The notes under the pieces were generated by a model. It saw only the letters and a list, made by a program, of their open reading frames with translations, searched no databases and was not told where the DNA came from. Below, one piece after another: positions 18,715 to 36,434 of a stretch of 64,000 bases of DNA (position 1 is the first letter of the stretch; every line of letters starts with the position of its first letter). The DNA lies in contig JAGAFT010000040.1 of the NCBI GenBank assembly GCA_017627975.1, positions 6,301 to 70,300 of the forward strand, written 5' to 3'. The translations under genes were made by a program, and so were the position numbers. Source of the stretch: Oscillospiraceae bacterium. Its GTDB lineage: Bacteria; Bacillota_A; Clostridia; Oscillospirales; Oscillospiraceae.

Positions 18715-20193
18715 TCAGCTTTTGAGATATTTTAGGACATTGCGGGCAGCTGTTCGACCGGAATTGACGTTATGGCCGTTTGCCGATCCGGGGACAGTAA
18801 TTGTATAGCAGTCCCAATACAGCTCGCAACCTTCAACACCGATGCAGTAGACTCCCGGAATCGGCTTGCCGGCTGGAGTGACAACCTCATACTTTCGATT
18901 CGTACGGACAGCACCGATCGAGGTCCATACACCGAGATCCTGCCGTACAATATAAAACGGGGCCTTCAGGACGGGAAGCAATCTGCTAGGATCTTTTGCA
19001 AAATCATCGTCATATTGTTTTGCACAGAAAGAATTATATCGGTCCACAGAAGCGCAGAATGAATCGGTGTCAATCCCGGCTGCCTCAGCGAGCGCTTCAA
19101 TGCTGTCCGCACGGAAACAGTTTCCGTAGGCGCCCTCACACAGCTTCTCAAGATCGGAGCAAAGCTCCGTCGCCTCCACTGAAAAGCGATCGATGAAAGC
19201 ACTGTCAAAAACAGCCCATGTTTCTGCCTGTGTGAGCTTGGCATTTGAGTAATAGCACGGGACATGCTGCCCGCAAAACTCATTGTTGAAGCGCTCTCCT
19301 TCTGAATTCACCCACAGGGTATAGCCCTTCAGATTGATATAAGCGTTGGTTTGGCTGTAAGGGCTGAGGGGATAGATGTAAATCTTATCTAGGTACGCTC
19401 TTCTGCGGGAAACATCTTCCGCACCCAGTTCAACAGCCATACGGAGACCGTCTCCCTGGTGACCGGGATTTCCACGGTGAAAAAGGCAAGGAACATTAAA
19501 ACCCCTGTCAGCCATCATCTGATCGTTGTCTACAAAACCACCGGTTGCGAGAATAACCGCACCGCAGTTGAACTTTGTGACTTCTGCCGTTTCAGGGTCT
19601 GCGGCGTAGATCCCGTTCACAACGTCGTCTTCCACCGCAAGCCGTATTCCTCGGGTTTTATTGTAGATGGGAATGCCAAGTCTGTTTGCGCTTTCAATCA
19701 GAGGATTGACGAGGAGATTTCCGTCGCCGCGTCCGTCAGATTCCCGCCGGTAAAACCAATGGTACGGTTTGATTTTCGCATTTCCCTTACACTCATCGAC
19801 GACTCCGGAGAAACCAACGCCGTGTTCAAGCAGCCAGGAGATGTTATCTCCGGAGTTGAGCACAAGATCTCTCCATTTCAACGTATCAATATGGTAGTTA
19901 AATGTCCTGGATTCGACCTCAATGATCTCACGAAGCGTAATGTGAATACCCTGCTCCTTTTGAAAAACAGAATTAATGGCAAAAACGCCTTCCGTGTGTT
20001 CCCCGTTGCCACCGAGCTTTTCGTTCACTTCGATTATAACCGGCTCTAGGCCGAGTTCTTTTGCCTGTACTGCCGCTGTAAGTCCGGACGGCCCCGATCC
20101 GACGACGACAACATCACAGTTGACCGTTTTTCTGACATCGGCGGCAATGTCAAGTTCATTGCTGATATATTGCTGAATTTTCAAATTCTCCAT
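18715..20193 (-). CDS. FAD-dependent fumarate-reductase-like oxidoreductase
   Basis: A 492-residue flavoprotein of the fumarate reductase/succinate dehydrogenase flavoprotein superfamily (flavocytochrome c, urocanate reductase and 3-ketosteroid dehydrogenase relatives). The dinucleotide fold is DVVVVGSGPSGLTAA near residue 26; GGNGEHTEG follows as the FAD-contact loop, and the C-terminal GxEG segment (IGVEGCELY) closes the FAD site. It lacks a Tat signal, heme motifs and an FMN domain, so it is likely cytosolic with a separate electron donor. Members reduce C=C bonds next to carboxylates, which fits an island full of dehydratases that create such bonds. It follows lacI by 32 bases and is probably cotranscribed. 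Confidence 0.85.
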   Translation of the reverse strand: MENLKIQQYISNELDIAADVRKTVNCDVVVVGSGPSGLTAAVQAKELGLEPVIIEVNEKLGGNGEHTEGVFAINSVFQKEQGIHITLREIIEVESRTFNYHIDTLKWRDLVLNSGDNISWLLEHGVGFSGVVDECKGNAKIKPYHWFYRRESDGRGDGNLLVNPLIESANRLGIPIYNKTRGIRLAVEDDVVNGIYAADPETAEVTKFNCGAVILATGGFVDNDQMMADRGFNVPCLFHRGNPGHQGDGLRMAVELGAEDVSRRRAYLDKIYIYPLSPYSQTNAYINLKGYTLWVNSEGERFNNEFCGQHVPCYYSNAKLTQAETWAVFDSAFIDRFSVEATELCSDLEKLCEGAYGNCFRADSIEALAEAAGIDTDSFCASVDRYNSFCAKQYDDDFAKDPSRLLPVLKAPFYIVRQDLGVWTSIGAVRTNRKYEVVTPAGKPIPGVYCIGVEGCELYWDCYTITVPGSANGHNVNSGRTAARNVLKYLKS

Positions 20194-20225
20194 AGCGCAT
20201 CCTTTCTCCTAAACGGGGGAAGAAG

Positions 20226-21233
20226 CTATGTGCTTTCCCTGATAATCAGTTCAGGCTTGATTTGGGCTGTTTTCGCTGCCCCGGTATTGTTGATTAAATC
20301 CATGATCAGAGTGACACAGGTTTTCCCGAGACTCTCAAAGTTCGTACTTACCGTGGTCAGGGTCGGCGTGCAGCATTTTGAAAGGATCGTATTGTTGTAT
20401 CCGATCACAGCGACCTCATCCGGAACACTGTACCCCAGCGAGATCAGTCTTTTCAATCCTCCGACGGCGGTCATGTCGTCATTAAAAAGAATTGCCGAAA
20501 AAGGCTTTCCAGAAGCAATGATCGTATCAACCGCACCGGCGCCGCCTTCCAGAGATCTGTTAGTCTCAATGATCAGGCCGGTATCCGCTTTCATGCCGCG
20601 TGCCAGTAGCTGCCCGAGAAAAATGTTCGCTTTCTTCTGGGAACTGTAGGAGTCGACGTCTTTCACAAAAAAGATGTCAGAGTGACCCCGCTCAAGCAGA
20701 TGAGACAGCGCTTTTTCGATCCCGACGTACTCATCAAAATCCACACAGCAGACATTCTCCGCTTCCAAAGGATAATTTGTTACAATAAACGGGATATGGC
20801 TGTATTCTGAAAGAATGCTGGTCTCGTTGAAGGTTCTGTCAAATACGGATCCGATGCAAATGATCCCGCTTACCCCTTTATCCAGCAGCATACGGATAGA
20901 CTTGATGTTATCCTCTGTCTCGCCGAAGGTGTTGCAGATGATGGAGCTGTATCCCAGCAGCGCGAGATTGCGTTCAATGGTATACGCAGCTACGTTGTAG
21001 TTTTCAGACCGAATATCTACCGTTAGAATCCCGATGGTCTGCATGTTTCGATTGACCATTGCTCTTGCGATGGTACTGGGGCGGTAATGCAGCTTCTGCA
21101 GAGCATTCATCACTTTCTTCTGCGTTTTGGGCGATACGTTCGGATTGTTGTTCAACACCCTGGATACCGTTGCGATTGACACACCGGACTCCTGCGCAAC
21201 ATCGTAAATACTGGCTGAATTCGATTGTAACAT
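20226..21233 (-). CDS. LacI-family transcriptional regulator
   Basis: A 335-residue repressor. The N-terminal LacI helix-turn-helix and hinge is textbook: SIYDVAQESGVSIATVSRVL then NNNPNVSPKT, and a hinge helix with ARAMVNR. The remaining 275 residues form a periplasmic-binding-like effector domain. ATG at 21233 is chosen because TGAGGA lies 7 bases upstream; the ATG four codons earlier lacks a good RBS. As the only regulator in the island it is the best candidate to control the two divergent operons, whose start regions each carry a palindrome with a central CG, the hallmark of LacI-type operators. Effector unknown, presumably the imported acid or an intermediate. Confidence 0.92.
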   Translation of the reverse strand: MLQSNSASIYDVAQESGVSIATVSRVLNNNPNVSPKTQKKVMNALQKLHYRPSTIARAMVNRNMQTIGILTVDIRSENYNVAAYTIERNLALLGYSSIICNTFGETEDNIKSIRMLLDKGVSGIICIGSVFDRTFNETSILSEYSHIPFIVTNYPLEAENVCCVDFDEYVGIEKALSHLLERGHSDIFFVKDVDSYSSQKKANIFLGQLLARGMKADTGLIIETNRSLEGGAGAVDTIIASGKPFSAILFNDDMTAVGGLKRLISLGYSVPDEVAVIGYNNTILSKCCTPTLTTVSTNFESLGKTCVTLIMDLINNTGAAKTAQIKPELIIREST

Positions 21234-21295
21234 AATGGTCCTCATTATTCTCGTATTTTTTTACAATCGGACCGTAAAGTCCACCGTGGAGCATC

Positions 21296-21358: not shown

Positions 21359-21372
21359 CCAGTATTTTTTGA

Positions 21373-22113
21373 TTATTTCATACCCATCCCGGGACCAAAA
21401 ACACCGCTGTCATGGCCGGTAAGGATTTTTGTGGAGATCTTTCTGAGTTTCTCCATGCTCTTATGCATGTTTTCTTTGGAGAGCTCGTTGTAGCACAGTC
21501 CATTCCCTTTCGGAGGGTCATGATACCAGCTTTCCTGCAGCGGAATCAGGTCACCCACAATAAGCACCGGGCCGTCTTCCGTGTCGACGACAATGGTCTG
21601 GCATCCGATCGTATGCCCCGGGGTATAAACGACCGAAATACCCGGAAAGATTTCTGCGTCCCCGTCAACCAGCTCATATTTGAAGAGCTTGATATATTCT
21701 TTGACGTATCCGATTTTGTTGCTGGGTTCATCCGGGTCATCCAAGCTCTCGAGTTCCTTTTTCTGGCAGATCAGACGTGTGGTTTTCGGGAACAGATGGG
21801 TGTTGTAGGCGTGATCCCAGTGCAGATGAGTAAAGATAACGGCCTCGATCTCATCGATGTCGACCCCGATGTTTTTCAGCGCTGCATCAATCACCTGATC
21901 GTCTGTTCTGGTATACGGCTGCGCACCCTTACCGCGCTCATAATCGACAGGGCATCCGCCGTTGTCAATGACGATCTTATGAACGCCGTCCGTCAGATAA
22001 AACGCATTGATGGGAAAGGGTTCAATTTCTGTGCCGGTGTAATCTTCAAAAAAGTTTTTCTTGGGTCTGGTAATGTATCCCAGACAAAGCGGAGTGATGG
22101 TATACTTGCTCAC
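21373..22113 (-). CDS. MBL-fold hydrolase, AHL-lactonase (AttM/AiiA)-like
   Basis: A 246-residue metallo-beta-lactamase-fold enzyme. The dinuclear metal motif THLHWDHAYN (HxHxDH) is near residue 105, followed by TPGHTIGCQ and a late GHDSGVFGPG histidine. This pattern is the N-acyl-homoserine lactonase-like branch, whose members open lactones. In this setting a lactone or thioester of a hydroxy acid is a more likely substrate than a quorum signal; that is inference. Start is GTG at 22113 behind GGAGGT, only 15 bases after the PrpD stop codon, so the two are translationally close. A second, divergent paralog is at 34277. Confidence 0.85.
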   Translation of the reverse strand: MSKYTITPLCLGYITRPKKNFFEDYTGTEIEPFPINAFYLTDGVHKIVIDNGGCPVDYERGKGAQPYTRTDDQVIDAALKNIGVDIDEIEAVIFTHLHWDHAYNTHLFPKTTRLICQKKELESLDDPDEPSNKIGYVKEYIKLFKYELVDGDAEIFPGISVVYTPGHTIGCQTIVVDTEDGPVLIVGDLIPLQESWYHDPPKGNGLCYNELSKENMHKSMEKLRKISTKILTGHDSGVFGPGMGMK

Positions 22114-22128
22114 TTGTTCTACCTCCAG

Positions 22129-23511
22129 TCAGTGAAGAAGTGCAGTAAGATCACGAACGGAGATGTTCTCCAGATTCATGACCGCGTCGTAGAGTTCCTG
22201 AGCTTTCTCTTTGGACACGGTGCGGCATGCGAGTGAAAAGAATTTATTCTTCAGTTCCTCAGGGGACATCGGGTTCTCCGGATCCCCCTTGGTATAAGTG
22301 GTGAGATCCTCGTATTTTTTCCCGTCTTTTGTCTCTATAGCCACAGTAGAGGCGAAAATATAGGGGAGATACTTATCCAGTTTCCCCGTGTGTTCCATCT
22401 CGACACGATTCATCATGGCCTTGATGGTTGGATCTGTGAGAAGCTCTTCCTGAAACTGATCCACAGAAGCCTGCCCGTACAGAGCTGCCACAGCGACAGA
22501 ATAGGGAAGACTGAACTGAGCGGCGCCAACTACAGGCGGATTATACTTGATCTCCCGAGGCTCGACAACGGCTCTGACCGCCATACTGACGACATCAACA
22601 GATATTTTTTCAATATCGTCGGCTTTGATATCATTGTTTTTCATCACTTTGATCGTGCAGTCAATAGGAGCGTGGGTGTACTTGCAGCTGGCATAGGGCT
22701 TGAATGCTGTATACATGATCGGGTATTCGGAATAATCCAGATTCTTCAGCATATTTTCTGGGCTGACGTCATCTGAATAGGCGTGAAGAAAACCGCATTT
22801 GCCTTCAAAGATCCAACGGGGGCCTCTGTAGCCGACATCGGCAAGATTGCTTGCCGTGATTGCACACATGGAGGCATGGCCTGGATTGAGACGCTTCGTA
22901 AGAGTTCCGTCTGCATAGCACTCCAGGTTTCCGGCAGAAAACCCGCCGGCGATGCCGAGCGCGTTCTTTAGCTTTTCCGCGCTGAATCGCTTGAGCATCG
23001 AAACGGCTGTTGTGCCGCCGAAGATACCGACCGTTGCGGTCGGATGAAAGCCCCTCTCAAAATGTTTGTCCTGATTGACTGCACGGCCGACCCGGACCAT
23101 GGCATCATAACCCCAGATCACAGCCCTGATCAGGTCTTCACCGCTAGCGTTCACCTCTTCGCCCACGGCCACAGCCGGTGAGATGACTACAACCGCGGGG
23201 TGTCCGCATGCCTGAGTATTTGAGTCATCCATCTCCAGCCCGTGTGCGGAAGCCGCGTTAATGAAGGCGGCTTTATCTGTGGGTGCGTATCCGCCTCCTA
23301 CAACTGTGGTAGTACCCACATAGTCCTTTGGAATCATAGCTTCCTTTACCATTTCCGTTGATTCCAGATTGGATCCGCCGACTGCGTTTCCAAGCCAGTC
23401 CAGGATGATCTCTTTGGTCCTGGCAATAACATGTTCTGGAATAGCGGTCGCATCGGCATTCACATAGTATTGTGCTATCCGTTCACTGATGCTCGGAATT
23501 GATGGTTGCAT
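22129..23511 (-). CDS. MmgE/PrpD family protein (first copy)
   Basis: A 460-residue cytoplasmic protein of the MmgE/PrpD family, which includes 2-methylcitrate dehydratase (PrpD), cis-aconitate decarboxylase and iminodisuccinate epimerase. Family features: IILDWLGNAVGGSN near residue 36, the AAFINAASAHGLEMDDSN segment with the conserved His-Asp pair, and GFHPTATVGIFGG. The catalysed reaction is probably water elimination or decarboxylation on a tri- or dicarboxylate. It lies downstream of the TRAP genes and upstream of the MBL gene on the same strand, so it should act on the imported acid. It is clearly diverged from the copy at 26996. Confidence 0.88.
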   Translation of the reverse strand: MQPSIPSISERIAQYYVNADATAIPEHVIARTKEIILDWLGNAVGGSNLESTEMVKEAMIPKDYVGTTTVVGGGYAPTDKAAFINAASAHGLEMDDSNTQACGHPAVVVISPAVAVGEEVNASGEDLIRAVIWGYDAMVRVGRAVNQDKHFERGFHPTATVGIFGGTTAVSMLKRFSAEKLKNALGIAGGFSAGNLECYADGTLTKRLNPGHASMCAITASNLADVGYRGPRWIFEGKCGFLHAYSDDVSPENMLKNLDYSEYPIMYTAFKPYASCKYTHAPIDCTIKVMKNNDIKADDIEKISVDVVSMAVRAVVEPREIKYNPPVVGAAQFSLPYSVAVAALYGQASVDQFQEELLTDPTIKAMMNRVEMEHTGKLDKYLPYIFASTVAIETKDGKKYEDLTTYTKGDPENPMSPEELKNKFFSLACRTVSKEKAQELYDAVMNLENISVRDLTALLH

Positions 23512-23550
23512 ATTTACCTCCTGCAGATATGGTTTTTGCTTATTTTATAT

Positions 23551-23579: not shown

Positions 23580-23608
23580 TCCTTGTTAATGCTGATCTTT
23601 AGACGGCT

Positions 23609-24682
23609 TCAAGCCTCGGGGGGAACATAGGTGTTCTCAGAGACAGGATACATTTCGTTGTACTTATCCCGCAGAGAATACAGAAGTTCAAGTGCTTTCG
23701 TTCCCTCAAGTCCCTGATCGTCAAGTTTCTTGGCGTAGTCGGTGATCAGGTTCGCTGTCAGATCGATGAAGGGCTGCTCCTCTTCTTCGGTCAGATAGGT
23801 GACAGTGCCGCCGCTCTCGGCATACATCTCATACACGCTGGTTGCGGACTGCTCAAACCAGCAGCAGCCGATTTCTTCGAAGACCTCTGCGGCGCACTCA
23901 TCCAGGATCTTCTTCTGGTTGTCGGAGAGTTTGTTGTAGGCATCGCCGTTCATGAGCGTGAGGTGCGTTGTATTGCAGAAGTGAACGCGGGTGGCATGGT
24001 TGGTAACTTCAAAGAGCTTGAAGTTCTGAACAGAGTCGGGCGTAGCCATATAGCCGTCAACAATACCGCTGCGGATTGCCTCATAGGCTTCGGCAGCAAT
24101 CATGGCTACGGGGGTTCCGCCGAAGGCAGAGATGGTCTCAGCCATAATGCCGTTCACGCGGATTTCAAGCCCCTTTACATCTTCGGGGGTCTTGATGTCT
24201 CTCTGGTTGTTGATCAGGATGCCTTCACCGGAGCAAAATGCCATCAGCAGATGGGTGCCGTCAAGCTCTGCCGGCTGGAGTTCGGCCAGATAGTCGCGGA
24301 GTGCGTAGGACGCGGCTCTTGCAGATGCAAAATAGGTGGGATACTCAAGCATGAAGGTCATGGGAAGCGCACCGGTATAGTTGCCGGTATAGAGCCAGCC
24401 AATATCTGCCAGACCGTCTTTAACGGCATCCAGAACGGCGTCAGCCGCGCAAAGAGTTGCGCCGGGATAGACGTCGAACTTGATGCTGCCGTTGCTGCGC
24501 TCTTCAACCTTCTGGATAAAGGGATTGACAACCATCGTCTCATAGCGGCTGCCGGATGCAAGATAGATTGCGTACTTGAGGGTTACGGGTTTGTCTTCTG
24601 CGGGGGCGGCTGCACTTGCACAGGGTGCGCATACTGTGAGCACCAAGGCGAGGATCAGCAAGAATGCGAGTCTTCTTTTCAT
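23609..24682 (-). CDS. dctP: TRAP transporter solute-binding protein (DctP type)
   Basis: A 357-residue extracytoplasmic binding protein. The signal peptide MKRRLAFLLILALVLTVCAP is clear, with possible cleavage after the ASA near residue 25. The mature part is the TRAP DctP fold; the conserved Arg that binds the substrate carboxylate is R175 in GLEIRVNG. That residue argues for an organic acid ligand. It is the third gene of the TRAP set, after dctM by 84 bases. In a Gram-positive cell it would need membrane tethering or association with DctQM; no lipobox is evident. Confidence 0.92.
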   Translation of the reverse strand: MKRRLAFLLILALVLTVCAPCASAAAPAEDKPVTLKYAIYLASGSRYETMVVNPFIQKVEERSNGSIKFDVYPGATLCAADAVLDAVKDGLADIGWLYTGNYTGALPMTFMLEYPTYFASARAASYALRDYLAELQPAELDGTHLLMAFCSGEGILINNQRDIKTPEDVKGLEIRVNGIMAETISAFGGTPVAMIAAEAYEAIRSGIVDGYMATPDSVQNFKLFEVTNHATRVHFCNTTHLTLMNGDAYNKLSDNQKKILDECAAEVFEEIGCCWFEQSATSVYEMYAESGGTVTYLTEEEEQPFIDLTANLITDYAKKLDDQGLEGTKALELLYSLRDKYNEMYPVSENTYVPPEA

Positions 24683-24766: not shown

Positions 24767-26074
24767 TTACACAAGGCTGGGGAGGAACGTTGCAATCGAA
24801 GGGAATGCAATCAGCAACCCGCAGGCCACAACAATTGCCGCAACATATCCCCATACGCCCTTATAGATCGTGAAGATCGGTACATCTTTTGTTACGCTCT
24901 GCATGACGAAAACATTCAGGCCGATCGGAGGCGTGATGGAAGCCATGGAAAGCACCATAACGATCAGAACGCCGAACCAGATCGGGTCATACCCGAGACC
25001 GGTAACAATGATAGGGTAGAAAACCGGGATCGTGAGGAGAATCATGGCGAGTGCGTCGATGAACATGCCGAGGATCAGGTAAATAAACAGAATAATAGCA
25101 AAAATGACCCATTTGTTAACGTCAAGACTTGCGACCAGATCGCCGAGGAAGGTCGGAATCCTGCTCAGAGCAAAGAACCTGCTGAATACTGTCGCGGATG
25201 CGACCAGGAGGAATACCGTTGCGGTCAGCTTTGCACTTTCAAGAAGAGACTTTTTAAAAACGTGCCAAGTCAGCTTTTTGGAGAACAGGCAAACCAATAA
25301 CATGCCGGTGGCGCCGATCGCGCCGGCTTCCGTTGCCGTAAACCAGCCGAAGAAGATTCCTCCGATGGACACGAAAAAGACAATCAGCACCTCCAGAACG
25401 CCGCCGTCTGTCAAAGCGGCAAGGCGCTCTTTCCTGCTTGCCTTCGCCTTGATCGGTGCCAGAGACGGATTCATTGCAACGCTGACATATCCGACAATCA
25501 TGAAAAGCACCATCAGAAGAATACCAGGAAGAATACCGGAAATGAACAGCTTGCCGATCGATACTTCTGTAGCAATACCGTAAACAATAAAGGTAACACT
25601 CGGAGGAATCAGAAGAGAAAGGCTGGCGCCGGATGCGACGGAAGCGGTGGAAAGGCTGTCTTGGTAGCCTAGCTTTTTCATCTCCGGATAGGCAATCGAT
25701 CCAATGGTGGCAACCGTAGCGGAGTTTGAACCGCAGATTGCGCCGAATATGGCACAGGCAATCTGGACAGCCATACACAGACCGCCTTTGACGTGGCCGA
25801 CCGCTTTATCGCCGAGGTTAAACAGCTTTGACCCGAGTCCTGAGTATGAAGCGAGATACCCCATGAGCCCGAACAGAGGAATCACCGACATGGTGTAAGA
25901 AGAGAAATTGGTATAAAGGTCGGTGCCGATGGCAGAAAGCGCCGGTTTGAAGCCGACCATGACGACCATTCCAAAATAGGCAACCGTGAGCATGGAAAAA
26001 GCGACGGGAACACGCAGGAACATTAAAACAATAACCAGCAGGGTTCCGAGCAACCCTATCATTTGACCAGACAT
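24767..26074 (-). CDS. dctM: TRAP transporter large permease (DctM type)
   Basis: A 435-residue polytopic membrane protein with about 12 helices, the sodium- or proton-coupled transport subunit of a TRAP system. Typical segments include MVGFKPAL, IACAIFGAICGSNSATVATI, IPPSVTFIVYGI and GMFIDALAMILLTIPVFYPI. I start it at ATG 26074, preceded by CAGGAGG; the longer in-frame reading from 26182 would overlap dctQ deeply and adds a charged stretch foreign to the family. It is 16 bases after dctQ. Confidence 0.93.
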   Translation of the reverse strand: MSGQMIGLLGTLLVIVLMFLRVPVAFSMLTVAYFGMVVMVGFKPALSAIGTDLYTNFSSYTMSVIPLFGLMGYLASYSGLGSKLFNLGDKAVGHVKGGLCMAVQIACAIFGAICGSNSATVATIGSIAYPEMKKLGYQDSLSTASVASGASLSLLIPPSVTFIVYGIATEVSIGKLFISGILPGILLMVLFMIVGYVSVAMNPSLAPIKAKASRKERLAALTDGGVLEVLIVFFVSIGGIFFGWFTATEAGAIGATGMLLVCLFSKKLTWHVFKKSLLESAKLTATVFLLVASATVFSRFFALSRIPTFLGDLVASLDVNKWVIFAIILFIYLILGMFIDALAMILLTIPVFYPIIVTGLGYDPIWFGVLIVMVLSMASITPPIGLNVFVMQSVTKDVPIFTIYKGVWGYVAAIVVACGLLIAFPSIATFLPSLV

Positions 26075-26090: not shown

Positions 26091-26639
26091 TCAGATGATC
26101 TTATCCAGAATTTCTTCCTTAACGTCTCCAGAGTCCTTTTTCTCAACATCGGAACCGAGTTCATATCCGACAATCCTGGCAATCAGTTTGAAAACAATGC
26201 AAACTGTCAGCAGAGCAAGAGAAATAAACATAATAAGGAGGAAGATGTATACCGGGATCGATAGATTTGCCGTAACAGAAGCATCTTTGATTTTGGCCAG
26301 CATAAACTGATACATTCTGTAAGAGCAGATCGCTGAGATGACGGCGGAAACCAGAAGCGAAAAGATCATCAGGATTCTTTTTCCGACATCCCCGAGGAAA
26401 TTATCCAAGAAATCGATTGTGATGTTTCCGCTCTCATATTCGTTATGTACAAGAGAGAGGGATACAACAAGCAGCGAGCACAACTGGACGACTTCAAACG
26501 TTCCGAATATTGCATATCCGAACACCGCACGAACTATGACATACACGGTAACAAACGCCATCATGATAAACAGAAAGACACATGAGGCATAATCCATCCA
26601 TGTCGCAATGGTTCGAACAATCCTGTCAACTGTTTTCAC
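26091..26639 (-). CDS. dctQ: TRAP transporter small permease (DctQ type)
   Basis: A 182-residue membrane protein with four predicted helices, the small subunit that pairs with DctM. Family features: a short N-terminus, helix 1 near 18-40, the E-V-V-Q-L segment before helix 2, and IDFLDNF after it (HNEYESGNITIDFL). The charged C-terminal tail of about 25 residues is longer than usual. It is the first gene of the leftward operon, behind a promoter with an operator palindrome at 26758-26771. Confidence 0.9.
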   Translation of the reverse strand: MKTVDRIVRTIATWMDYASCVFLFIMMAFVTVYVIVRAVFGYAIFGTFEVVQLCSLLVVSLSLVHNEYESGNITIDFLDNFLGDVGKRILMIFSLLVSAVISAICSYRMYQFMLAKIKDASVTANLSIPVYIFLLIMFISLALLTVCIVFKLIARIVGYELGSDVEKKDSGDVKEEILDKII

Positions 26640-26757: not shown

Positions 26758-26805
26758 TGGAAGCGCTTACAAAGATAGGATAATCACACACTCACAATTT
26801 GTCAA
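26758..26805 (-). promoter_or_regulatory. Leftward island promoter with operator palindrome
   Basis: On the minus strand TTGACA (26805-26800), 17-base spacer, TATCCT (26782-26777). The palindrome TGGAAGCGCTTACA at 26758-26771 covers the expected start site (about 26770). It differs at one informative position from the CcpA cre consensus and equals a LacI-type site with central CG. Repression of dctQMP-prpD-mbl is inferred. Confidence 0.7.
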
Positions 26806-26890: not shown

Positions 26891-26943
26891 TTGACTTTCC
26901 AAGTAGCGGAAAATATAATGAATATTGCTTGAAAGCGCTTACA
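26891..26943 (+). promoter_or_regulatory. Rightward island promoter with operator palindrome
   Basis: TTGACT (26891-26896), 17-base spacer, TATAAT (26914-26919). TGAAAGCGCTTACA at 26930-26943 lies just after the expected start site and fits the cre consensus fully; it is nearly the same as the site at 26758. The two divergent operons thus share one operator type. The rest of the 356-bp region (26640-26995) holds no gene. Confidence 0.75.
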
Positions 26944-29633: not shown

Positions 29634-30908
29634 ATGGGAATGACGATATCTGAAAAAATCCTCGCTAAACACGCCGGTCTGGACTCTGTAAGTCCCGGCG
29701 ACACCATCACCTGCAGGGTCGACTGGACTGTCTGCCATGATATGTTTTTCAACGTAGACGGACAGGATATGTATAGGAATGTCACGCATCTTGACCATCC
29801 GGAGCGCTGCCTTGTGCTCATGGATCACTCCGTCCCTGCGGCGACAAGTCGCGACGCACTGGGCGGCGTATATGCCAGAGAGTTTGTTAAGAAGCACAGG
29901 ATAGACAACTTCATCGATGTCGGCGATCACGCGGTAATCCATCAGGCGCTTGCTGAACGGGGCTATGCGGCGCCCGGCCGGCTGATTGCGGGCGGGGATT
30001 CTCATACCTGTGCCGCCGGGGCGCTGAATGCGGCGGCAAGAGGCTTCGGTCCGGCGGATATCACCTATCTCTTCTGCACCGGTGAGACCTGGTATCAGGT
30101 AGCACCCACCATCCTGTATCGTATGCACGGGGAACTTCCACGCGCATGCAGCGGCAAGGATATTTTCCTGTATATCGCAGGAACATACGGAGATGCAACA
30201 GGGTTTTCTGTTGAGTTCGGGGGCGACGGCGTGGCGAGCCTCTCTGTCCCGCAGCGGCAGAGCATTGCGACAATGTGTGCGGAGATCAATGCGGAGTTTG
30301 CGCTTTTTCCATGTGATGATGTCCTGACGGCATACCTTGTGTCACGCGGAGACAGAGAGATCACCCCGGTCAATGCGGATGAGGATGCCAAGTATGCGGA
30401 GATTCGGGATATCAATCTCTCAGAAATCGTTCCTTACGTTGCTAAACCGCATTATATTCCTAAAAACTGTGTACCGGTTACGGAAGCAGAAGGCATTCCC
30501 GTCAATCAGGTGGTTGTCGGTTCCTGTTCAAACGGAAGAATCGAGGATCTGAGAACGGTAGCCGCAATCATGAAAGGCAGGCACGTTGCACAGGGAGTGC
30601 GGTTTATTGTTACTCCCGCTTCACAGCGGATTTATCTGCAGGCTGTACGGGAGGGCTTGATAGAAACCCTAGTTGAAGCAGGGTGCGTTGTTACAAACGC
30701 GACCTGCGGATGCTGCTATGGCGGCCATATGGGTCTTCTCGGCCCCGGGGAGAGATGTCTCTCCACGACAACAAGAAATTTCAAAGGCCGGCTTGGCTCC
30801 ACCGAAAGCGAGGTCATGCTCTGCGCTCCGGCGACTGCAGCGGCCAGTGCGATTGCAGGCGTGATCACGGATCCCCGGAAGGTATGGAAGGAAAGGGTTG
30901 AAGGATGA
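29634..30908 (+). CDS. Aconitase-family hydro-lyase large subunit (LeuC/DmdA-like)
   Basis: A 424-residue [4Fe-4S] hydratase subunit resembling isopropylmalate isomerase LeuC, homoaconitase and dimethylmaleate hydratase DmdA. The three cluster cysteines are in VGSCSNGR and in ATCGCCYGG. Substrate-loop segments include MDHSVPAA, GDSHTCAAGALN and the C-terminal LGSTESEVML. The enzyme adds or removes water across a C=C bond. No leuB or leuA is nearby, so leucine synthesis is unlikely. ATG 29634 is preferred; a TTG at 29622 sits on top of the GAGGAGG RBS. It overlaps the small-subunit gene by four bases. Confidence 0.9.
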   Translation: MGMTISEKILAKHAGLDSVSPGDTITCRVDWTVCHDMFFNVDGQDMYRNVTHLDHPERCLVLMDHSVPAATSRDALGGVYAREFVKKHRIDNFIDVGDHAVIHQALAERGYAAPGRLIAGGDSHTCAAGALNAAARGFGPADITYLFCTGETWYQVAPTILYRMHGELPRACSGKDIFLYIAGTYGDATGFSVEFGGDGVASLSVPQRQSIATMCAEINAEFALFPCDDVLTAYLVSRGDREITPVNADEDAKYAEIRDINLSEIVPYVAKPHYIPKNCVPVTEAEGIPVNQVVVGSCSNGRIEDLRTVAAIMKGRHVAQGVRFIVTPASQRIYLQAVREGLIETLVEAGCVVTNATCGCCYGGHMGLLGPGERCLSTTTRNFKGRLGSTESEVMLCAPATAAASAIAGVITDPRKVWKERVEG

Positions 30909-31396
30909 AACTTGAAGGAAAAGTATGGGTTTTTGGCGATGAAATCAATACGGATCTGATTTTTCCGCACCATGCGCTTCGCGCAGCACCGGAGGAGCAA
31001 TGCCGTTTATGCATGAGCGATAATCGTCCGGGCTGGTCCTCTTTGGTGGAAAAAGGAGACATTCTGATCGCCGGATCCAATTTTGGTACGGGATCATCCC
31101 GCCCGGGCGCTTTAATCCTCCGTCGGCTCGGTCTTGCCGGAATGGTGGCAGACAGCTACAACGGGCTGTTTTACCGCAACTGTATCAGCTACGGTTTCCC
31201 GGCAATCATGGTCAACGGAGTATCCCGCATGTTTGAAGAAGGTGACATTGCCGTGGTTGATCTTGCCGAGGGCAGTATCATGAACCGGAGAACCGGAGAA
31301 ACCCGTTATGGAAACAGACTGCCCAAAGAGATGATCGAAATCCTCAAAGCCGGAGGCATCAGCGGCGTGCTGGCAGACCGTGGCTATATGAGCTGA
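30905..31396 (+). CDS. Aconitase-family hydro-lyase small subunit (LeuD/DmdB-like)
   Basis: A 163-residue swivelling-domain subunit that pairs with the preceding large subunit. It has the GDEINTDLIFP opening (family GDxIDTDxIxP) and the anion-binding loop GSNFGTGSSRPGA. In LeuD and aconitases this loop normally reads GSSREHA; replacement of Glu-His by Pro-Gly at the substrate side is a notable change and suggests a different substrate carboxylate geometry. Length is typical for archaeal- and clostridial-type LeuD. ATGA overlap with the large subunit means coupled translation and a stoichiometric complex. Confidence 0.9.
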   Translation: MKLEGKVWVFGDEINTDLIFPHHALRAAPEEQCRLCMSDNRPGWSSLVEKGDILIAGSNFGTGSSRPGALILRRLGLAGMVADSYNGLFYRNCISYGFPAIMVNGVSRMFEEGDIAVVDLAEGSIMNRRTGETRYGNRLPKEMIEILKAGGISGVLADRGYMS

Positions 31397-31416: not shown

Positions 31417-32307
31417 ATGATCAGGAATCCGGGAACGGTCCTTCGGACTGTCCTTAATCAGCCGGAGATCGTCATGATGCCGGGCGTGTTTGACGGGATC
31501 TCGGCAAGAGTAGCTGAGCAGGCAGGTTTCCAGGCCCTCTATCTTACCGGAGCGGGCGCTTCGGCGAGTTGTATCGGAGAACCCGACATCGGCCTGGCCA
31601 CGATGAATGATTTTGCCGACAATGCCCGCAGGATAACAATCAAAGCGGGGATTCCCGCAATGTGTGATGTCGATACTGGTTTTGGCAATCAGCTGAATGT
31701 CATCCGGACGGTTCATGAATTCGAGGCGGCCGGAGTTGCTGCCGTACAGATAGAAGACCAGCTAGCACCGAAGAGATGCGGTCATCTGAAAGGAAAGCAG
31801 GTGATCCCGGCAGCAGAGTTTGTACAGAAGCTTCGGGCTGCAGTCAACGAGAAGTTCTTTGATGATACGATGATCGTCGCAAGAACAGATGCCCGCGCCC
31901 TGTACAGTCTTGAAGATACCTTGGAGCGTGCTAAAATGTACGCTGACGCCGGAGCAGATGTACTTTTTGTAGAGGCGCTTACCACAATCGAAGAAGTTGA
32001 ACGCGTCGGCAGGGAACTGGGGAGCCGCGTGCCTCTGATGGCAAATCAGGTGCTTGGGGGAAAAACGCCGCGGCTGTCTGCGAAGGAACTGGAACAGATG
32101 GGATATAAAATTGTGATCTTCCCCGACGTGCTCCCATACGGCGCCAGTGTTCTTCTGAGAGAAATCTGCGACAGCATCATGAAAAACGGAACCGCTTACG
32201 ATGCAATTCACGGAAAACATAATACCAGCCTGGATCTTTTCCTGACAATGGGGATGAAATCCTGGAGGGACAAGGAACTCGAGTACTCGGAGGGAAATGA
32301 ATCATGA
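31417..32307 (+). CDS. PEP mutase/isocitrate lyase-family lyase (methylisocitrate or dimethylmalate lyase-like)
   Basis: A 296-residue TIM-barrel lyase. Mg-binding residues are in CDVDTGFGN, the conserved IEDQ follows, and the catalytic loop is PKRCGHLKGK with the Cys and His typical of 2-methylisocitrate lyase (PrpB) and 2,3-dimethylmalate lyase (Dml). It should perform retro-aldol cleavage of a hydroxy di- or tricarboxylate to pyruvate (or glyoxylate) and a second acid such as propionate or succinate. Being last in the isomerase-hydratase-lyase series, it sets the likely products. It overlaps the next gene by four bases. Confidence 0.9.
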   Translation: MIRNPGTVLRTVLNQPEIVMMPGVFDGISARVAEQAGFQALYLTGAGASASCIGEPDIGLATMNDFADNARRITIKAGIPAMCDVDTGFGNQLNVIRTVHEFEAAGVAAVQIEDQLAPKRCGHLKGKQVIPAAEFVQKLRAAVNEKFFDDTMIVARTDARALYSLEDTLERAKMYADAGADVLFVEALTTIEEVERVGRELGSRVPLMANQVLGGKTPRLSAKELEQMGYKIVIFPDVLPYGASVLLREICDSIMKNGTAYDAIHGKHNTSLDLFLTMGMKSWRDKELEYSEGNES

Positions 32308-34247
32308 GTGTAAACAGCTTCAGTCACGTTTTATCCCCGTTCTCCTTCGGCAAGGTCACCACAAAAAACCGTATCGAACTGTCTCCTGCCGGCTATATGC
32401 TTGCCAATGCGGACGGTACGGCGAATTTTGAAGTTCTCTCGTTCTATGAGCGGATCGCAAAGGGCGGCGCGGGAATTGTTACGATCGGCGAGTCTGCCAT
32501 CGACTACGAATACGCAGACAATCACAAGCCTGCTATTAACATGGGGTCCGACGCTTCTATTCCTGGACTCTTTCGGATCAACGAGGCGGTGTCGAAATAT
32601 GGCGCCCTGCTTTCCATCGAGCTTCAGCATTCAGGCAGTCACATGAAGACCCGGACGGTTACCATCGGTCCGAGCGCTATTCCGGCGGAAAACCCCGACG
32701 ATCCTGAATCACCCTATTGCATAGAGATGGATCAGGAGATGATCGACAGGGTTGTAAAGCACTGGGCGGATGCCGCAGAACGCTGCGTAAAAGCAGGGCT
32801 GAAAATGGTTATGCTGCATGGTGGACACGGACACTTGCTGGCCCAGTTTGTCTCTCCCTATGCCAACAAACGGACGGATAAATACGGTGGAAGCCTTGAA
32901 AACAGAGCGCGTTTTCCGATCGAGGTTTTGACTGCAATCAAGGAGCGCTGCCCGGATCTGACGATTGAATACCGGATCAGCGCAGATGAACTTGTCGAGG
33001 GCGGTATGAAGCCAGACGACGTGATCCGGTTCGTGAAACTGATTGAAGACAAGATCGATCTGCTCCATGTTTCCGTTGGCTATCTCAGTGAAGAGCGGAC
33101 GGTTCCTCGCATGATACAACCGACCTATTATCCGCATCAGCTGAACGTCCACTATGCCGAATACCTGAAGCAGCATTTGAGTATCCCGATCACAACGGTC
33201 GGCTCCATCTCCACAATGGAGGATGCCGAAGAGATCATTGCCTCCGGAAAAGCCGATATTGTTGCTATGGCACGTGCAATCTTCGCGGACAACGACATTG
33301 TCAACAATGCCCGTCTCGGAAAAGCAGACAAAACGCGTCCGTGTCTGCGCTGCTTTAACTGCAATAAGCGGACAACCCGCTATCTTCCGATCCGCTGCTC
33401 CGTCAACCCCGAACTCGGCCGCGCGGTTGAGATCGGGGACATCAAACCCGCGGTTGAAACAAAGAAGCTGGTTGTAATCGGAGGCGGGCCAGGCGGGATG
33501 CGTGCGGCGATGACGGCCTCCCGTCGGGGAATTCAAACGGTTCTGTTTGAAAAAGAGCCTGTTCTCGGCGGAAACCTTCGCATGGCATCCGAGCTTTCGA
33601 TCAAGGCGGATATGCGCAAGTATCTGAACTGGCTGATCAAAACCACGATGGAAACGGAGGGTGTGGAGGTCAGACTGAACACAACCGCCACGAAAGAAGC
33701 TGTCCTTCGGGAAAACCCTGATGCGGTCATTATTGCCGGCGGATCCACGCCGATCCTGCCGAAATTCCCCGGCTCAGAGAAGAACAATGTGCTGTGGGTC
33801 GGAGACGCTTACAAGGATCTGAGCCAGATCGGGAACAATGTTCTGATCATCGGTGCCGGAAACACCGGCGCAGAGACAGCGCTGTCACTGACCAAAGACG
33901 GTAAGAAGGTCACCGTTGTTGACATGATGCCTGAGGACAAGATAAAGCCGCAGTGGACGGTCGGGCTTGGCTTCCTTTTGGAAGAGTACGGCGCAAAGTT
34001 TATTTTTGAAACCGGGCTCTCCTCCATTACGGAAGAGGGGGCCATTGTGAAATCAAAGGACGGCGAGGAATACCTGATTAGCGCGGATACGATAATCCTC
34101 TCCCTGGGATTCAGATCGCGCAAAAATCTGATCGAAGAATTCGGCAATATTGTACCGCAGACCTATGTGATCGGCGACAACCGCATCCCGGACTCTTCCA
34201 TGGAAGCAACACATGACGGGTTCAACACGGTCTGCATCCTGCCATAA
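32304..34247 (+). CDS. Old-yellow-enzyme-type NADH:flavin oxidoreductase (2,4-dienoyl-CoA reductase/BaiCD-like)
   Basis: A 647-residue multidomain enoate reductase. Residues about 1-345 form the FMN-binding TIM barrel (LQHSGSH, HGGHGHLLAQFVSPYANKR). A [4Fe-4S] motif follows (CLRCFNC, then CSVNP). The C-terminal part has an FAD/NAD fold with VVIGGGPGGMRAA near residue 395 and a second Rossmann motif (LIIGAGNTGAE). It belongs with FadH, trimethylamine dehydrogenase and the bile-acid enzymes BaiCD/BaiH, which reduce activated C=C bonds with NAD(P)H. In this operon it would reduce an unsaturated intermediate and act as an electron sink. ATGA overlap with the lyase gene. Confidence 0.9.
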   Translation: MSVNSFSHVLSPFSFGKVTTKNRIELSPAGYMLANADGTANFEVLSFYERIAKGGAGIVTIGESAIDYEYADNHKPAINMGSDASIPGLFRINEAVSKYGALLSIELQHSGSHMKTRTVTIGPSAIPAENPDDPESPYCIEMDQEMIDRVVKHWADAAERCVKAGLKMVMLHGGHGHLLAQFVSPYANKRTDKYGGSLENRARFPIEVLTAIKERCPDLTIEYRISADELVEGGMKPDDVIRFVKLIEDKIDLLHVSVGYLSEERTVPRMIQPTYYPHQLNVHYAEYLKQHLSIPITTVGSISTMEDAEEIIASGKADIVAMARAIFADNDIVNNARLGKADKTRPCLRCFNCNKRTTRYLPIRCSVNPELGRAVEIGDIKPAVETKKLVVIGGGPGGMRAAMTASRRGIQTVLFEKEPVLGGNLRMASELSIKADMRKYLNWLIKTTMETEGVEVRLNTTATKEAVLRENPDAVIIAGGSTPILPKFPGSEKNNVLWVGDAYKDLSQIGNNVLIIGAGNTGAETALSLTKDGKKVTVVDMMPEDKIKPQWTVGLGFLLEEYGAKFIFETGLSSITEEGAIVKSKDGEEYLISADTIILSLGFRSRKNLIEEFGNIVPQTYVIGDNRIPDSSMEATHDGFNTVCILP

Positions 34248-34276
34248 GGCGACCATACTAGACGGAGGAAAATGAC

Positions 34277-34975
34277 ATGGCTTATATTATTCATCCGCTG
34301 AATCTTGGGTCGGCCCTGCGCCCGAGAGATCCTCGCCCGGGTGTGCACCCCGAGCTGATCGAAGCTCCCGCCATCAGCTATCTGGTTCTCGGGGAGGGCC
34401 ATACCATTCTTGTAGATACCGGAGGTGTCGAGCCGGACGGTGTTCGCTGGATGCCCTATTTCCGAAAAGAAGGTCAGGATCCTGTCACCCAGCTGTCTTT
34501 GTACGGAGTCAAGCCTGATGACGTCGACACCGTCATCATCACGCATCTTCATTGGGACCACACAGGGAATAACGGTCTGTATAAAAATGCCCGCTTTATT
34601 GTTCAGCAGCGGGAATATGACGCGTTCCTCGCGGATATGGACAAAACCTGCTATGACAAAGAGCCGGTGCTTGCCACGACATTTGAATTTGTTGACGGAG
34701 ACGCCGATATTCTCCCCGGCATTTCTACAAAGCTGATGCCGGGACATACGCCAGGCTTCCAGAGTGTGATCATCGATACGGAAAAGGGAAAATACGTTAT
34801 CTTAAGCGATACGGCCGTGCGTTTTGAGCATTGGGAAGAACCGCGGCTGATTCAGGATCCCGGATATGATACCGAAACCCTGATGAACGCCATAGGCTAT
34901 CTGGATCATCTCGGGGCATCGATTCTGCCCGGACATGATATGGATGTTTTCCATCATACCACCTACCCATATTAA
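34277..34975 (+). CDS. MBL-fold hydrolase, AHL-lactonase-like (second copy)
   Basis: A 232-residue metallo-beta-lactamase-fold enzyme with THLHWDHTGNN near residue 93, MPGHTPGFQS and the terminal GHDMDVFHHT histidine, the AttM/AiiA-type pattern. It is the second such enzyme in the island, one in each arm. A role on a lactone or ester form of the substrate is inferred from the duplication and context, not from motifs. RBS GGAGG; 29 bases after the flavoprotein gene. A hairpin follows, then a MATE exporter. Confidence 0.85.
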   Translation: MAYIIHPLNLGSALRPRDPRPGVHPELIEAPAISYLVLGEGHTILVDTGGVEPDGVRWMPYFRKEGQDPVTQLSLYGVKPDDVDTVIITHLHWDHTGNNGLYKNARFIVQQREYDAFLADMDKTCYDKEPVLATTFEFVDGDADILPGISTKLMPGHTPGFQSVIIDTEKGKYVILSDTAVRFEHWEEPRLIQDPGYDTETLMNAIGYLDHLGASILPGHDMDVFHHTTYPY

Positions 34976-34997
34976 GGTTTTAAGAATAAAATGAATC

Positions 34998-35037
34998 TCA
35001 CAGCACATTGAAGGGAATCCCCTTTAATGTGCTGTGA
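34998..35037 (+). repeat. Hairpin between MBL and MATE genes
   Basis: A 12-bp perfect stem (34998-35009 with 35026-35037) over a loop that can pair further. On the plus strand it is followed by an A-rich, not T-rich, tract, and the MATE start codon lies 17 bases on, so it may limit MATE expression. Confidence 0.6.
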
Positions 35038-35054
35038 AGTAAAAAAGAAAAAAC

Positions 35055-36434
35055 ATGAGTAACAGAACGCTTGCCGCATCCGATCAGGATTTTTCCAGGG
35101 GCTCTGTGCTGGATGCTCTTTTCCGTATGGCAGTTCCCATGTCTATGGCGCTGCTGATCAATATTCTCTACAGTGTTGTAGACCGTATCTATATCGGACA
35201 TATACCGGAGGTTGGCAGGTTATCCCTGACCGGTATCGGTCTCATCTCCCCAATAGTAACTGTGATCGTTGCATTTCAGAACCTTTTTGGCGTCGGAGGG
35301 ACGCCTCTCTTTTCGATCGCACGTGGGAAAGAAGACGACGATACAGCTTCCCGCATCCTACATAATGCCTGCTTTATGCTGCTGCTTACCGGCATCCTGC
35401 TTACGGCTCTTGTTCTGCTGACAAGCAGAAAACTGCTCTATCTGATCGGCGCTTCCGATGCAACCTATCCGTACGCATCCGGATACCTTCGGATTTATAT
35501 TCTGGGAACCGTGTTTGTCCTGTTCTCGCTGGGGCTGAACCCCTACATCAATGCACAGGGAAATGCAAAAATCGGGATGCTTACGGTTCTGATCGGGGCC
35601 GTTATAAATCTGATTCTCGACCCGGTTTTTATTTTCGGATTTCGAATGGGGGTCCAGGGTGCAGCGGTTGCAACAGTGATAGCGCAGTTCTGCTCCGCGC
35701 TGTGGGTTCTGCAGTACTTTCGAAGTCGCCGCAGTCGCTATCGCCTCAGCCTCCGGCGATTCAAGCCGGATATCCGGATTGTTGGCCGAATCATATCTTT
35801 AGGCGTTACAGAATTTGTTTTCCAGCTGACAAATTCCATTGTTTTGTTTCTGTATAATGTAAAACTTCTGGAATTGGGCGGCGACATCTATGTGACTGCG
35901 ATGACGGTAATCTATTCCATCAGAGAAATCACCAACGTGATCATGTTTGGCATAGTGGGTGCATCCAAGCCGATCATAGGATATAACTATGGCGCTGGGT
36001 GCTACGATCGTGTTAAACAGAGCATAAGCTATATGACAGTGCTCAATCTAATTTATCTTGGCCTCATCTGGGCGCTTGTAATGGCATTTCCGGACTGTTT
36101 TATTCTTCTCTTCAACAGCGATGCGCAGCTTCTTGAAATATGCAGAACCTGTGTTCGAATCTTTTTCCTGTTTTCTTTTTTTGGTGCACTCCAGGTTTCT
36201 TCCCAATCCGTATTCGTCTCTCTTGGCCGGGCAAAACATGCGCTGTTCTTTTCCCTGCTACGCAAAGTCATCCTGATCATTCCCCTGACGCTAATTCTGC
36301 CGTACCTTTTCCAGCTCGGCGCCAGGGGCGTTTTCCTTGCGGAGCCGTTATCTGAACTGATTGGGGGATCTGCCTGTTTTATCACGATGAGAAAAACGGT
36401 TTGGAAGGAGTTGAGCAAAAATGAAGAGGTTTGA
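35055..36434 (+). CDS. MATE-family efflux transporter (first)
   Basis: A 459-residue inner-membrane antiporter with about 12 helices. Typical MATE segments: LFRMAVPMSMALLINILYSV at the start, VDRIYIGH, GVGGTPLFSIARGKED, GLNPYINAQGN, and the second-half repeat FQLTNSIVLFLYN. It would export a small cationic or organic compound with Na+ or H+. The ribosome binding site is poor (an A-rich stretch with AAGAAA). Its place at the end of the catabolic operon suggests export of an end product or toxic analogue, but it may be independent. It is only distantly related to the MATE at 46684. Confidence 0.9.
   Translation: MSNRTLAASDQDFSRGSVLDALFRMAVPMSMALLINILYSVVDRIYIGHIPEVGRLSLTGIGLISPIVTVIVAFQNLFGVGGTPLFSIARGKEDDDTASRILHNACFMLLLTGILLTALVLLTSRKLLYLIGASDATYPYASGYLRIYILGTVFVLFSLGLNPYINAQGNAKIGMLTVLIGAVINLILDPVFIFGFRMGVQGAAVATVIAQFCSALWVLQYFRSRRSRYRLSLRRFKPDIRIVGRIISLGVTEFVFQLTNSIVLFLYNVKLLELGGDIYVTAMTVIYSIREITNVIMFGIVGASKPIIGYNYGAGCYDRVKQSISYMTVLNLIYLGLIWALVMAFPDCFILLFNSDAQLLEICRTCVRIFFLFSFFGALQVSSQSVFVSLGRAKHALFFSLLRKVILIIPLTLILPYLFQLGARGVFLAEPLSELIGGSACFITMRKTVWKELSKNEEV

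Follow-up and report, generated by a model that had tools for sequence, protein, structure and literature searches.

A conserved but rare gene set of Clostridia-type bacteria with a putative route for the breakdown of branched acids

Gene content of the island and its shared promoter region

A 64,000-nucleotide stretch of an Oscillospiraceae contig (JAGAFT010000040.1), hereafter the window, carries at positions 18715-36434 an island of two divergent operons, the left one on the minus strand (18715-26639, flavoprotein to DctQ) and the right one on the plus strand (26972-36434, PrpD2 to MATE). A first-pass annotation had read the island as a candidate new catabolic system in which a TRAP transporter, two PrpD proteins, an isomerase, a two-subunit hydratase, and a lyase act together. 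Every gene it named was an open reading frame (ORF) at its stated place, and family searches agreed with the named families; the starts of PrpD2, the isomerase, and DctM were adjusted from the sequence. The features are as follows.

18715..20193, minus strand: fumarate-reductase-like FAD flavoprotein, accessory; NCBIfam vinyl phenol reductase model 281.8 bits, cutoff of 600 missed
20226..21245, minus strand: LacI-family regulator, by family search
21373..22113, minus strand: MBL1, metallo-beta-lactamase-fold (MBL) hydrolase, putative lactonase; AiiA model 95.6 bits, cutoff of 375 missed; HxHxDH present
22129..23511, minus strand: PrpD1, MmgE/PrpD protein; best solved relative iminodisuccinate (IDS) epimerase 2hp0
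23609..24682, minus strand: DctP, TRAP solute-binding protein; NF037995 113.2 bits, above the cutoff of 50; TIGR00787 106.7, below the cutoff of 175
24767..26074, minus strand: DctM, TRAP large permease; TIGR00786 317.8, above the cutoff of 268.45, and also above the Pfam DctM cutoff
26091..26639, minus strand: DctQ, TRAP small permease; PF04290 54.5 bits, above the cutoff of 28.3
26758..26771, no strand: operator-like palindrome TGGAAGCGCTTACA in the shared promoter region
26930..26943, no strand: operator-like palindrome TGAAAGCGCTTACA in the shared promoter region
26996..28414, plus strand: PrpD2, MmgE/PrpD protein; best solved relative IDS epimerase; of the type common to variant B clusters (described below)
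28480..29625, plus strand: Mii/PrpF-type isomerase; 3g7k (Eubacterium barkeri 3-methylitaconate isomerase) 332.5 bits
29634..30908, plus strand: aconitase-type hydratase large subunit, start set to MGMTISEK; hacA_fam 429, above the cutoff of 385.7
30905..31396, plus strand: aconitase-type hydratase small subunit, GSSRP variant; TIGR02087 LeuD/DmdB 124.7, above the cutoff of 108.95
31417..32307, plus strand: isocitrate lyase (ICL)/phosphoenolpyruvate (PEP) mutase superfamily lyase; 3fa3 2,3-dimethylmalate lyase 202.3 bits, 9hra 2-methylisocitrate lyase 181.7
32304..34247, plus strand: Old Yellow Enzyme (OYE)-type enoate reductase, long form; three models, each under its cutoff
34277..34975, plus strand: MBL2, metallo-beta-lactamase-fold hydrolase, putative lactonase; AiiA 97.1 bits, cutoff of 375 missed
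35055..36434, plus strand: MATE exporter; TIGR00797 218.9, above the cutoff of 147.4

PrpD2 probably starts at ATG 26996, which is preceded by AAGGAG, and DctM probably at Met 37 of its ORF (26074), with which DctQ and DctM no longer overlap. The isomerase start was placed at Met 23 (28480), probably the right one because most listed relatives are of about 380 amino acids (aa). The TRAP transporter was complete in the window, with DctP, DctQ, and DctM together. In the acyl-homoserine lactone (AHL) lactonase equivalog test both MBL enzymes fell far short of the AiiA cutoff. The OYE reductase scored 384.4 with Mycofactocin OYE2, 382.3 with bilirubin reductase long form, and 375.5 with BaiCD, all below the cutoffs.

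The region from DctQ to the likely PrpD2 start comprised 356 intergenic bases and carried the two imperfect palindromes. A CcpA-type site would resemble these palindromes. An exact scan of the 64-kb window with TGNAANCGCTTNCA returned four strand matches (two sites, both strands) versus 0.01 expected, and no site beyond the two in the promoter region. Since the LacI gene is located in the left operon and two palindromes were present, joint repression is likely, with LacI controlling both operons via the two operator-like sites. A wider operator pattern was matched in 2 of 120 loci, neither of them an island relative, indicating that this operator control is not conserved.

Distribution of the gene set

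A database search with the isomerase yielded 7,730 proteins below 1e-20 among 8,000 scored candidates, of which the best 120 were examined, and a contig scan with a 28-sequence isomerase alignment gave at least 538 relatives, from which 80 loci were analysed. Loci were compared by tblastn with the window proteins. The three nearest relatives, from an uncultured Eubacteriales (L001), an Oscillospiraceae (L002), and a Clostridiales Family XIII bacterium (L003), each had the isomerase, hydratase, lyase, and PrpD2. Whole genomes were searched with the hydratase large subunit at 1e-120, in overlapping samples whose counts include the centre genome. The island hydratase was present in 2 of 394 genomes of the order of G001, in 3 of 300 genomes of the family of G001 and 3 of 250 of that of G002 (with the same trio counted in both), in 3 of 197 genomes of the family of G003, in 1 of 18 genomes of the family of G215, and in 1 of 391 of the class. 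Besides the window, its carriers were G001, G002, G003, G215, G441, G684, and G804. Isomerase and lyase were found alongside it in six of these seven genomes, partly in other gene orders, which argues for linkage beyond chance and bears out the dedicated isomerase-hydratase-lyase set proposed at first pass. The island is a conserved but rare gene set of Clostridia-type bacteria, its co-occurrence recurring in relatives whose genomes are mostly metagenome assemblies and possibly incomplete. Among the papers listed, judged by title and the start of the abstract, with most subscription journals outside the scope, none describing this gene set was found.

Over the eight loci, both hydratase subunits were present in eight, isomerase and lyase in seven each, PrpD2, MBL, and OYE in six, TRAP in five, a short-chain dehydrogenase/reductase (SDR) in four, PrpD1 in three, an Fe-S protein together with AOR in three, and the fumarate-reductase-like flavoprotein and LacI in two each. 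Contig ends explain some absences (G215, 3.4 kb; G684, 8.1 kb; G002, cut at PrpD2); the stretches fetched for G441 and G003 yielded no TRAP, and those for G003 no OYE. The first-pass proposal that the two flavoproteins serve as electron sinks did not hold in general, with the fumarate-reductase-like one confined to two loci; a 38% relative of it adjoins the G441 island. The G003 island contains a LacI relative (45% identity) and a PF04199 cyclase. The fullest set was that of G804, in an order different from the window's: TRAP, PrpD2, PrpD1, Fe-S protein, AOR, MBL, SDR, hydratase, lyase, isomerase, and OYE. Upstream of it lie four further OYE relatives, an SDR, a second TRAP, an MBL, two other PrpD relatives, and, by eye, an aldehyde dehydrogenase-like frame.

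No AOR relative was found in the window, though AOR-type molybdenum/tungsten enzymes are present in related islands. Molybdopterin genes of the MoeA and MobB types are located at window 14265-16229, directly upstream of the island. Window 38164-40515 (minus strand) holds a 783-aa frame without Pfam or NCBIfam match, overlapped by an opposite 731-aa frame, and a 247-aa protein of the G441 island (L089 17568-18311) had no match in Pfam at 0.001 or in NCBIfam at 1e-10.

A related arrangement, variant B, was found at four loci. Three of them (L007, L008, and L014) carry a PrpD2-type protein, MBL, TRAP permease, isomerase, lyase, and hydratase, and the fourth (L015, a 4.7-kb contig) MBL, isomerase, lyase, and hydratase, so that four components are common to the window island and all four loci, and the PrpD2-type protein and TRAP to three. 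Variant B differs in gene order, in a DmdA-like hydratase (59-61% identity to E. barkeri DmdA, with GSSRE in the small subunit), and in a PrpR_N sigma-54 regulator on the opposite strand adjoining the cluster in L007 and L014.

Subfamilies of the island enzymes

The end of nicotinate fermentation in E. barkeri runs through Mgm, Mii, DmdAB, and Dml. Against solved structures the island isomerase scored 332.5 with Mii (3g7k), 231.9 with the hypothetical protein 2h9f, 222.4 with PrpF, and 191.6 with oxalomesaconate isomerase, and its 268 bits against TIGR02334 prpF lay under the cutoff of 440.55; by these scores it is a Mii/PrpF family member, nearer Mii than PrpF. The role of Mii in the E. barkeri pathway has been described, and Mii also accepts itaconate (Velarde 2009, told in PMC4720413). 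E. barkeri Mgm, Hmd, and enamidase gave no match above 60 bits in the window or the compared island (A) and variant B loci. Full-length Mgm, which the same search found in E. barkeri and A. colihominis, was found in none of the seven island genomes, nor in G004 and G005 of variant B, in agreement with the first-pass view that this is not the known nicotinate pathway. In G001, G002, G003, G684, and G804 only short stretches (about 90 to 142 residues) matched, all within the final third of Mgm; they presumably represent the B12-binding domain.

PrpD and Mgm never occurred together in the 80 isomerase loci (PrpD alone in 19, Mgm alone in 17, neither in 44; one-sided Fisher 0.005) or in those with hydratase or lyase (PrpD alone in 13, Mgm alone in 16, neither in 17; Fisher 0.001), both values being too small since kinship is uncorrected and contig ends cut loci. 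PrpD and the B12 mutase may be read as alternative suppliers of an itaconate-type acid. Elsewhere, a Mii-type isomerase stands with PrpD and OYE at L006, L010, L046, and L048 (with MBL too in L006, L010, and L048), in Bacillota metagenome-assembled genomes, Plastoroseomonas, and Roseomonas; L006 and L010 also carry a lyase and flavoproteins, and hydratase relatives were not found at these four loci.

Since both subunit scores exceeded the family cutoffs and CxxC was kept, the hydratase is by sequence a two-subunit member of the aconitase superfamily. Its closest solved relatives were 4nqy and 3vba (LeuCD, methanogen homoaconitase/citramalate isomerase). In a tree of 45 rows (44 of 53 collected homologues and one reference; nine, including L007, L008, L036, L092, and L099, were excluded because their extended frame held an internal stop or was 620 or longer), the seven island members formed their own clade (100/100, stem 1.04), with G001 LeuC and E. 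barkeri DmdA together outside it; long branches meet in this tree and the order of its large clades is open. The separate LeuC of G001 belongs by eye to an apparent leu operon. As side observations, E. barkeri DmdA (L051 15212-16501) nests with LeuC, and nine other Mgm-bearing clusters (L009, L011, L012, L019, L027, L033, L041, L044, and L068) have a different hydratase clade (100/98), so one step of the nicotinate pathway is apparently served by two hydratase lineages.

The GSSRE motif of the small subunit binds substrate and is highly conserved across small subunits and related aconitases, and a five-residue small-subunit loop set substrate preference in a study of plant isopropylmalate isomerase (PMC7308503). 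Among 52 small subunits or matching domains, GSSRP was present in 8 of 8 from islands and GSSRE in 44 of 44 others; SSRP was present in all of the best 120 listed from 366 small-subunit relatives below 1e-10 (435 candidates). The large subunit retained CxxC and DSH, and NRNF was changed to TRNF in all seven aligned island rows; outside these rows TRNF occurred only in L111, a distant fragment, and L095 has NRNV. The separate clade and altered motifs argue that the window hydratase is not a LeuCD or DmdA orthologue. At the preference loop, ALR of the window aligned opposite YLR of 2pkp, which we take to be a homoaconitase small subunit of the M. jannaschii type; the loop Arg at this position presumably reads the distal carboxylate. 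Among the 112 of the best 120 listed relatives in which the loop was located, 87 have Arg here, 24 have Gly, and one has Ser.

By its sequence the window lyase is a member of the ICL/PEP mutase superfamily. In a tree of 39 rows (all 35 lyases and four references, several of these on long branches), the seven island members formed a 100/100 clade (stem 0.97). Nicotinate-type lyases (100/99 over 16 rows), the variant B lyases, and all four solved references lay outside this clade, and a weak split at the root (55/43) placed it together with 3fa3, 4iqd, and PrpB. The attachment points of the hydratase and lyase clades are not settled by the trees. The catalytic motif KRCGH was present in all seven clade lyases, with EGQ in place of EDQ just before it in L001. 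The clade's active site reads PG(V/I)(F/Y)DG, GAG, and NQV(L/I/Y)GG(K/R)TP; nicotinate-type lyases have PGAHD, GYG, and NMVEGG, and the three rows of named methylisocitrate lyases VGxI, GGGV, and NxTEFG. This PrpB signature was missing in the window lyase, whose active-site positions are shared with 2,3-dimethylmalate lyase 3fa3 (PGVYDG, GAG, but NMVEHG) rather than PrpB. Together with a TIGR02317 PrpB score of 276 bits, under the cutoff of 354.4, the missing signature argues against 2-methylisocitrate lyase (PrpB) identity. The window lyase was 39% identical to E. barkeri Dml. Among solved structures the E. barkeri lyase itself had petal death protein as its best match (234.2 bits, against 191.7 for 3fa3), so best solved matches are weak substrate guides here. 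With a variant B lyase as query at 1e-20, the island lyase was the sole relative found in G001, G441, and G804.

The three shared enzyme families, and the best solved matches of isomerase (Mii) and lyase (2,3-dimethylmalate lyase), would suit catabolism of 2,3-dimethylmaleate (or methylitaconate) as in E. barkeri, with uptake replacing synthesis from nicotinate. We consider this quite improbable, in that neither the hydratase nor the lyase groups with its E. barkeri counterpart (DmdA, Dml), each has active-site motifs of its own, and variant B, with its DmdA-like hydratase, is the better candidate. The likeness to Mii, DmdAB, and Dml noted at first pass thus stood for the isomerase and for the families but not for the hydratase and lyase subfamilies, whose position makes dimethylmaleate probably not the substrate.

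PrpD1 and PrpD2 were nearest IDS epimerase among solved structures and scored 22-46 bits against 2-methylcitrate dehydratase models (cutoffs 458-950). Of six putative catalytic residues listed for IDS epimerase, PrpD2 keeps all six and PrpD1 five, with D88 changed to Glu, which methylsuccinate isomerase likewise has at that position; characterised MmgE/PrpD substrates have a common 1,4-dicarboxylate backbone and undergo C2 (de)protonation (PMC12290011). In a tree of all 31 collected proteins of at least 330 aa and two references (the partial L002 PrpD left out, bootstrap not settled), PrpD2 fell in a clade with variant B proteins (97/95) and with L074 (100/98).

The L074 locus (8934-20513) and L129 1168-6211 (G619) combine a PrpD2-related protein, a Mii-type isomerase, and a DmdAB-like hydratase with carbamate kinase, a TudS-related protein, PreA, a hydantoinase/allantoinase-type amidohydrolase, and a carbamoyltransferase, followed by permease-, nitrilase-, HMG-CoA-lyase-, and CaiB-like frames (by eye). 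One might speculate that they catabolise a substituted pyrimidine via an itaconate-type acid, perhaps 5-carboxymethyl(-2-thio)uracil. The L074 PrpD was matched at 1e-60 in 5 of 400 genomes of its family, and the L074-like setting was not found in the fetched stretches of the other four (G001, G300, G441, and G478).

The PrpD, PrpF-type, and ICL-type families are also those of the methylcitrate cycle. In a methylcitrate/aconitate salvage, TRAP would import 2-methylcitrate, trans-aconitate, or tricarballylate, PrpD would dehydrate it, and after cis isomerisation by the PrpF-type enzyme the hydratase and lyase would yield pyruvate or glyoxylate plus succinate. The loop Arg at the homoaconitase position and the TcuA score of the flavoprotein (129.8 bits, under the cutoff of 369) favour such a salvage, which is nevertheless unlikely given the low 2-methylcitrate dehydratase scores, a lyase without VGxI, GGGV, and TEFG of the PrpB rows, and MBL and OYE enzymes left unexplained. 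Citrate synthase family members were present in 11 of 11 genomes. Six of them, from six of the seven island genomes, passed the citrate synthase model NF010635 and missed the methylcitrate synthase cutoffs (with the E. barkeri enzyme as an additional row; the set did not include a split match in G684 or the second copies of G003, G441, and G804), so that none tested was a methylcitrate synthase, as the first-pass annotation had held; this too speaks against the salvage. Clustering with PrpB and LeuCD alongside such a synthase, which would have spoken against that annotation, was not seen in relatives: hydratase and lyase had their own clades and lacked the signatures.

A proposed route and its relation to known systems

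We propose, with a probability of about 0.45 for the explanation as a whole, that this is a co-regulated lactone-opening/PrpD/Mii/hydratase/lyase catabolic island of Clostridia. Its most likely function is the uptake of a branched acid, perhaps one that forms a lactone, and its degradation to pyruvate and a short acid. TRAP would take up a branched 1,4-dicarboxylic (or tricarboxylic) acid, probably as a lactone, which an MBL enzyme would open to a 2-(hydroxyalkyl)succinate. PrpD2 (in some genomes PrpD1 too) would remove water, or epimerise and eliminate, via an enolate, and the resulting 2-alkylidenesuccinate of itaconate type would be converted by a double-bond shift to a substituted maleate by the Mii-type isomerase. 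The two-subunit Fe-S hydratase would add water, and the ICL-type lyase would cleave the substituted malate to pyruvate (or another 2-oxo acid) and a short acid. OYE, joined in relatives by SDR, AOR, and the aldehyde dehydrogenase-like frame, may form a variable upper part preparing different substrates, and LacI would repress both operons at the two operators. Gene set, conservation, clades, motifs, and operator-like sites are observed; from them we infer every reaction and the substrate, the order of lactone opening, elimination, isomerisation, hydration, and cleavage following from the families and the activities of known relatives. Dehydration, isomerisation, rehydration, and cleavage to pyruvate, as first proposed, fit the enzyme families, and the earlier interpretation is partly supported as a whole.

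Several findings argue for the proposed island. The isomerase is nearest Mii, which acts on itaconate; PrpD and Mgm, both of which would supply an itaconate-type acid, exclude each other; and PrpD2 has all six putative catalytic residues of IDS epimerase, in a family whose characterised substrates have a common backbone. The core genes are conserved yet shuffled. The MBL enzymes, which the first-pass annotation listed without assigning them a function, have a relative in six of the eight island loci and in all four variant B loci. The lyase has 3fa3-like positions and was the sole such lyase in three of three genomes, and the operator-like sites are consistent with co-regulation. Dibenzylbutyrolactone lignans, hematinic acid from tetrapyrroles, paraconic acids, and hydroxycitrate lactone were set aside as substrates, being guesses without support, and only the class was retained.

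Other observations weigh against the proposal. TRAP was present in only 5 of 8 loci, PrpD1 in 3, and OYE in 6 (two contigs are shorter than 9 kb). The small-subunit loop Arg, if its presumed meaning holds, hints at a tricarboxylic substrate, and MBL-fold and PrpD relatives are chemically diverse, so lactone opening and elimination are guesses. L006 and L010 carry Mii, PrpD, MBL, OYE, and lyase, yet no hydratase relative. Moreover, G300 (L126 4565-12500) carries a PrpD2 that matches the window protein at 77% identity, no less closely than that of any island member, next to OYE (47%), LacI (40%), an Fe-S protein, and AOR; no isomerase, hydratase, lyase, or MBL relative was found in this 18-kb locus, and no island hydratase in the genome at 1e-120. 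PrpD2 may thus act alongside OYE and AOR in an upper part, without necessarily supplying the isomerase.

The G300 locus, with PrpD2, OYE, and AOR and without the lower part, bears on another possibility, a route of aromatic or alicyclic ring cleavage (OYE, SDR, AOR, cyclase) in which Mii, hydratase, and lyase handle the ring-opened diacid of one plant compound. Also in its favour are OYE in 6, SDR in 4, and the Fe-S protein with AOR in 3 of 8 loci, the PF04199 cyclase within the G003 island, and the five OYE relatives, SDR, and aldehyde dehydrogenase-like frame of the G804 contig. Variant B, however, has MBL, isomerase, lyase, and hydratase (plus PrpD and TRAP in three of four) in surroundings that lack OYE and AOR relatives, and only L008 has an SDR relative, distant and 3 kb away. 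In the light of G300 we raised our estimate for ring cleavage somewhat, though it stays unlikely, lowered that for the lactone-opening island from 0.5 to its present value, and slightly lowered that for the coenzyme A (CoA)-free pathway described next.

A more specific form of the lactone-opening proposal, which we hold tentatively and as rather doubtful, is a pathway that degrades lactone-forming branched C4-dicarboxylates or tricarboxylates without CoA. Lactonase and PrpD would replace the B12 mutase, hydratase and lyase would be new subfamilies, and the hydratase would be an aconitase-superfamily branch with the altered substrate motif GSSRP. If so, the isomerase-hydratase part would be a portable module for several upper pathways, and testable roles could be assigned to clusters whose components are currently named after leucine or propionate metabolism. 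Two aconitase-type hydratases would be told apart, and itaconate-type acids would have a CoA-free route to pyruvate. The change from GSSRE to GSSRP provides a clear-cut signature by which further members can be recognised, and a means of testing how substrate is bound in the aconitase fold. Anaerobes of guts and other habitats degrade many plant and host acids by routes yet unknown.

Among known systems, a pseudomonad itaconate/methylsuccinate cluster likewise employs an MmgE/PrpD protein on branched C5 dicarboxylates, but no island gene scored as one of the genes that PMC12290011 assigns to it. The 2-methylcitrate cycle (PrpBCD, AcnD/PrpF) shares the PrpD, PrpF, and PrpB superfamilies; the island's PrpD branch and lyase signature and the lack of a methylcitrate synthase among those tested argue against membership. 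LeuCD and methanogen homoaconitase/citramalate isomerase contain the closest solved relatives of the hydratase, but GSSRP in place of GSSRE, TRNF in place of NRNF, and its own clade argue against LeuCD membership, and G001 has a separate LeuC. With nicotinate fermentation in E. barkeri the island shares a clustered Mii-type isomerase, two-subunit aconitase-family hydratase, and ICL-family lyase. It has PrpD and MBL in place of relatives of Mgm, Hmd, and enamidase, and the absence of these three together with the separate 100/100 hydratase and lyase clades argues against membership in that pathway. The proposed route is most likely related to, yet distinct from, the end of vitamin B3 fermentation.

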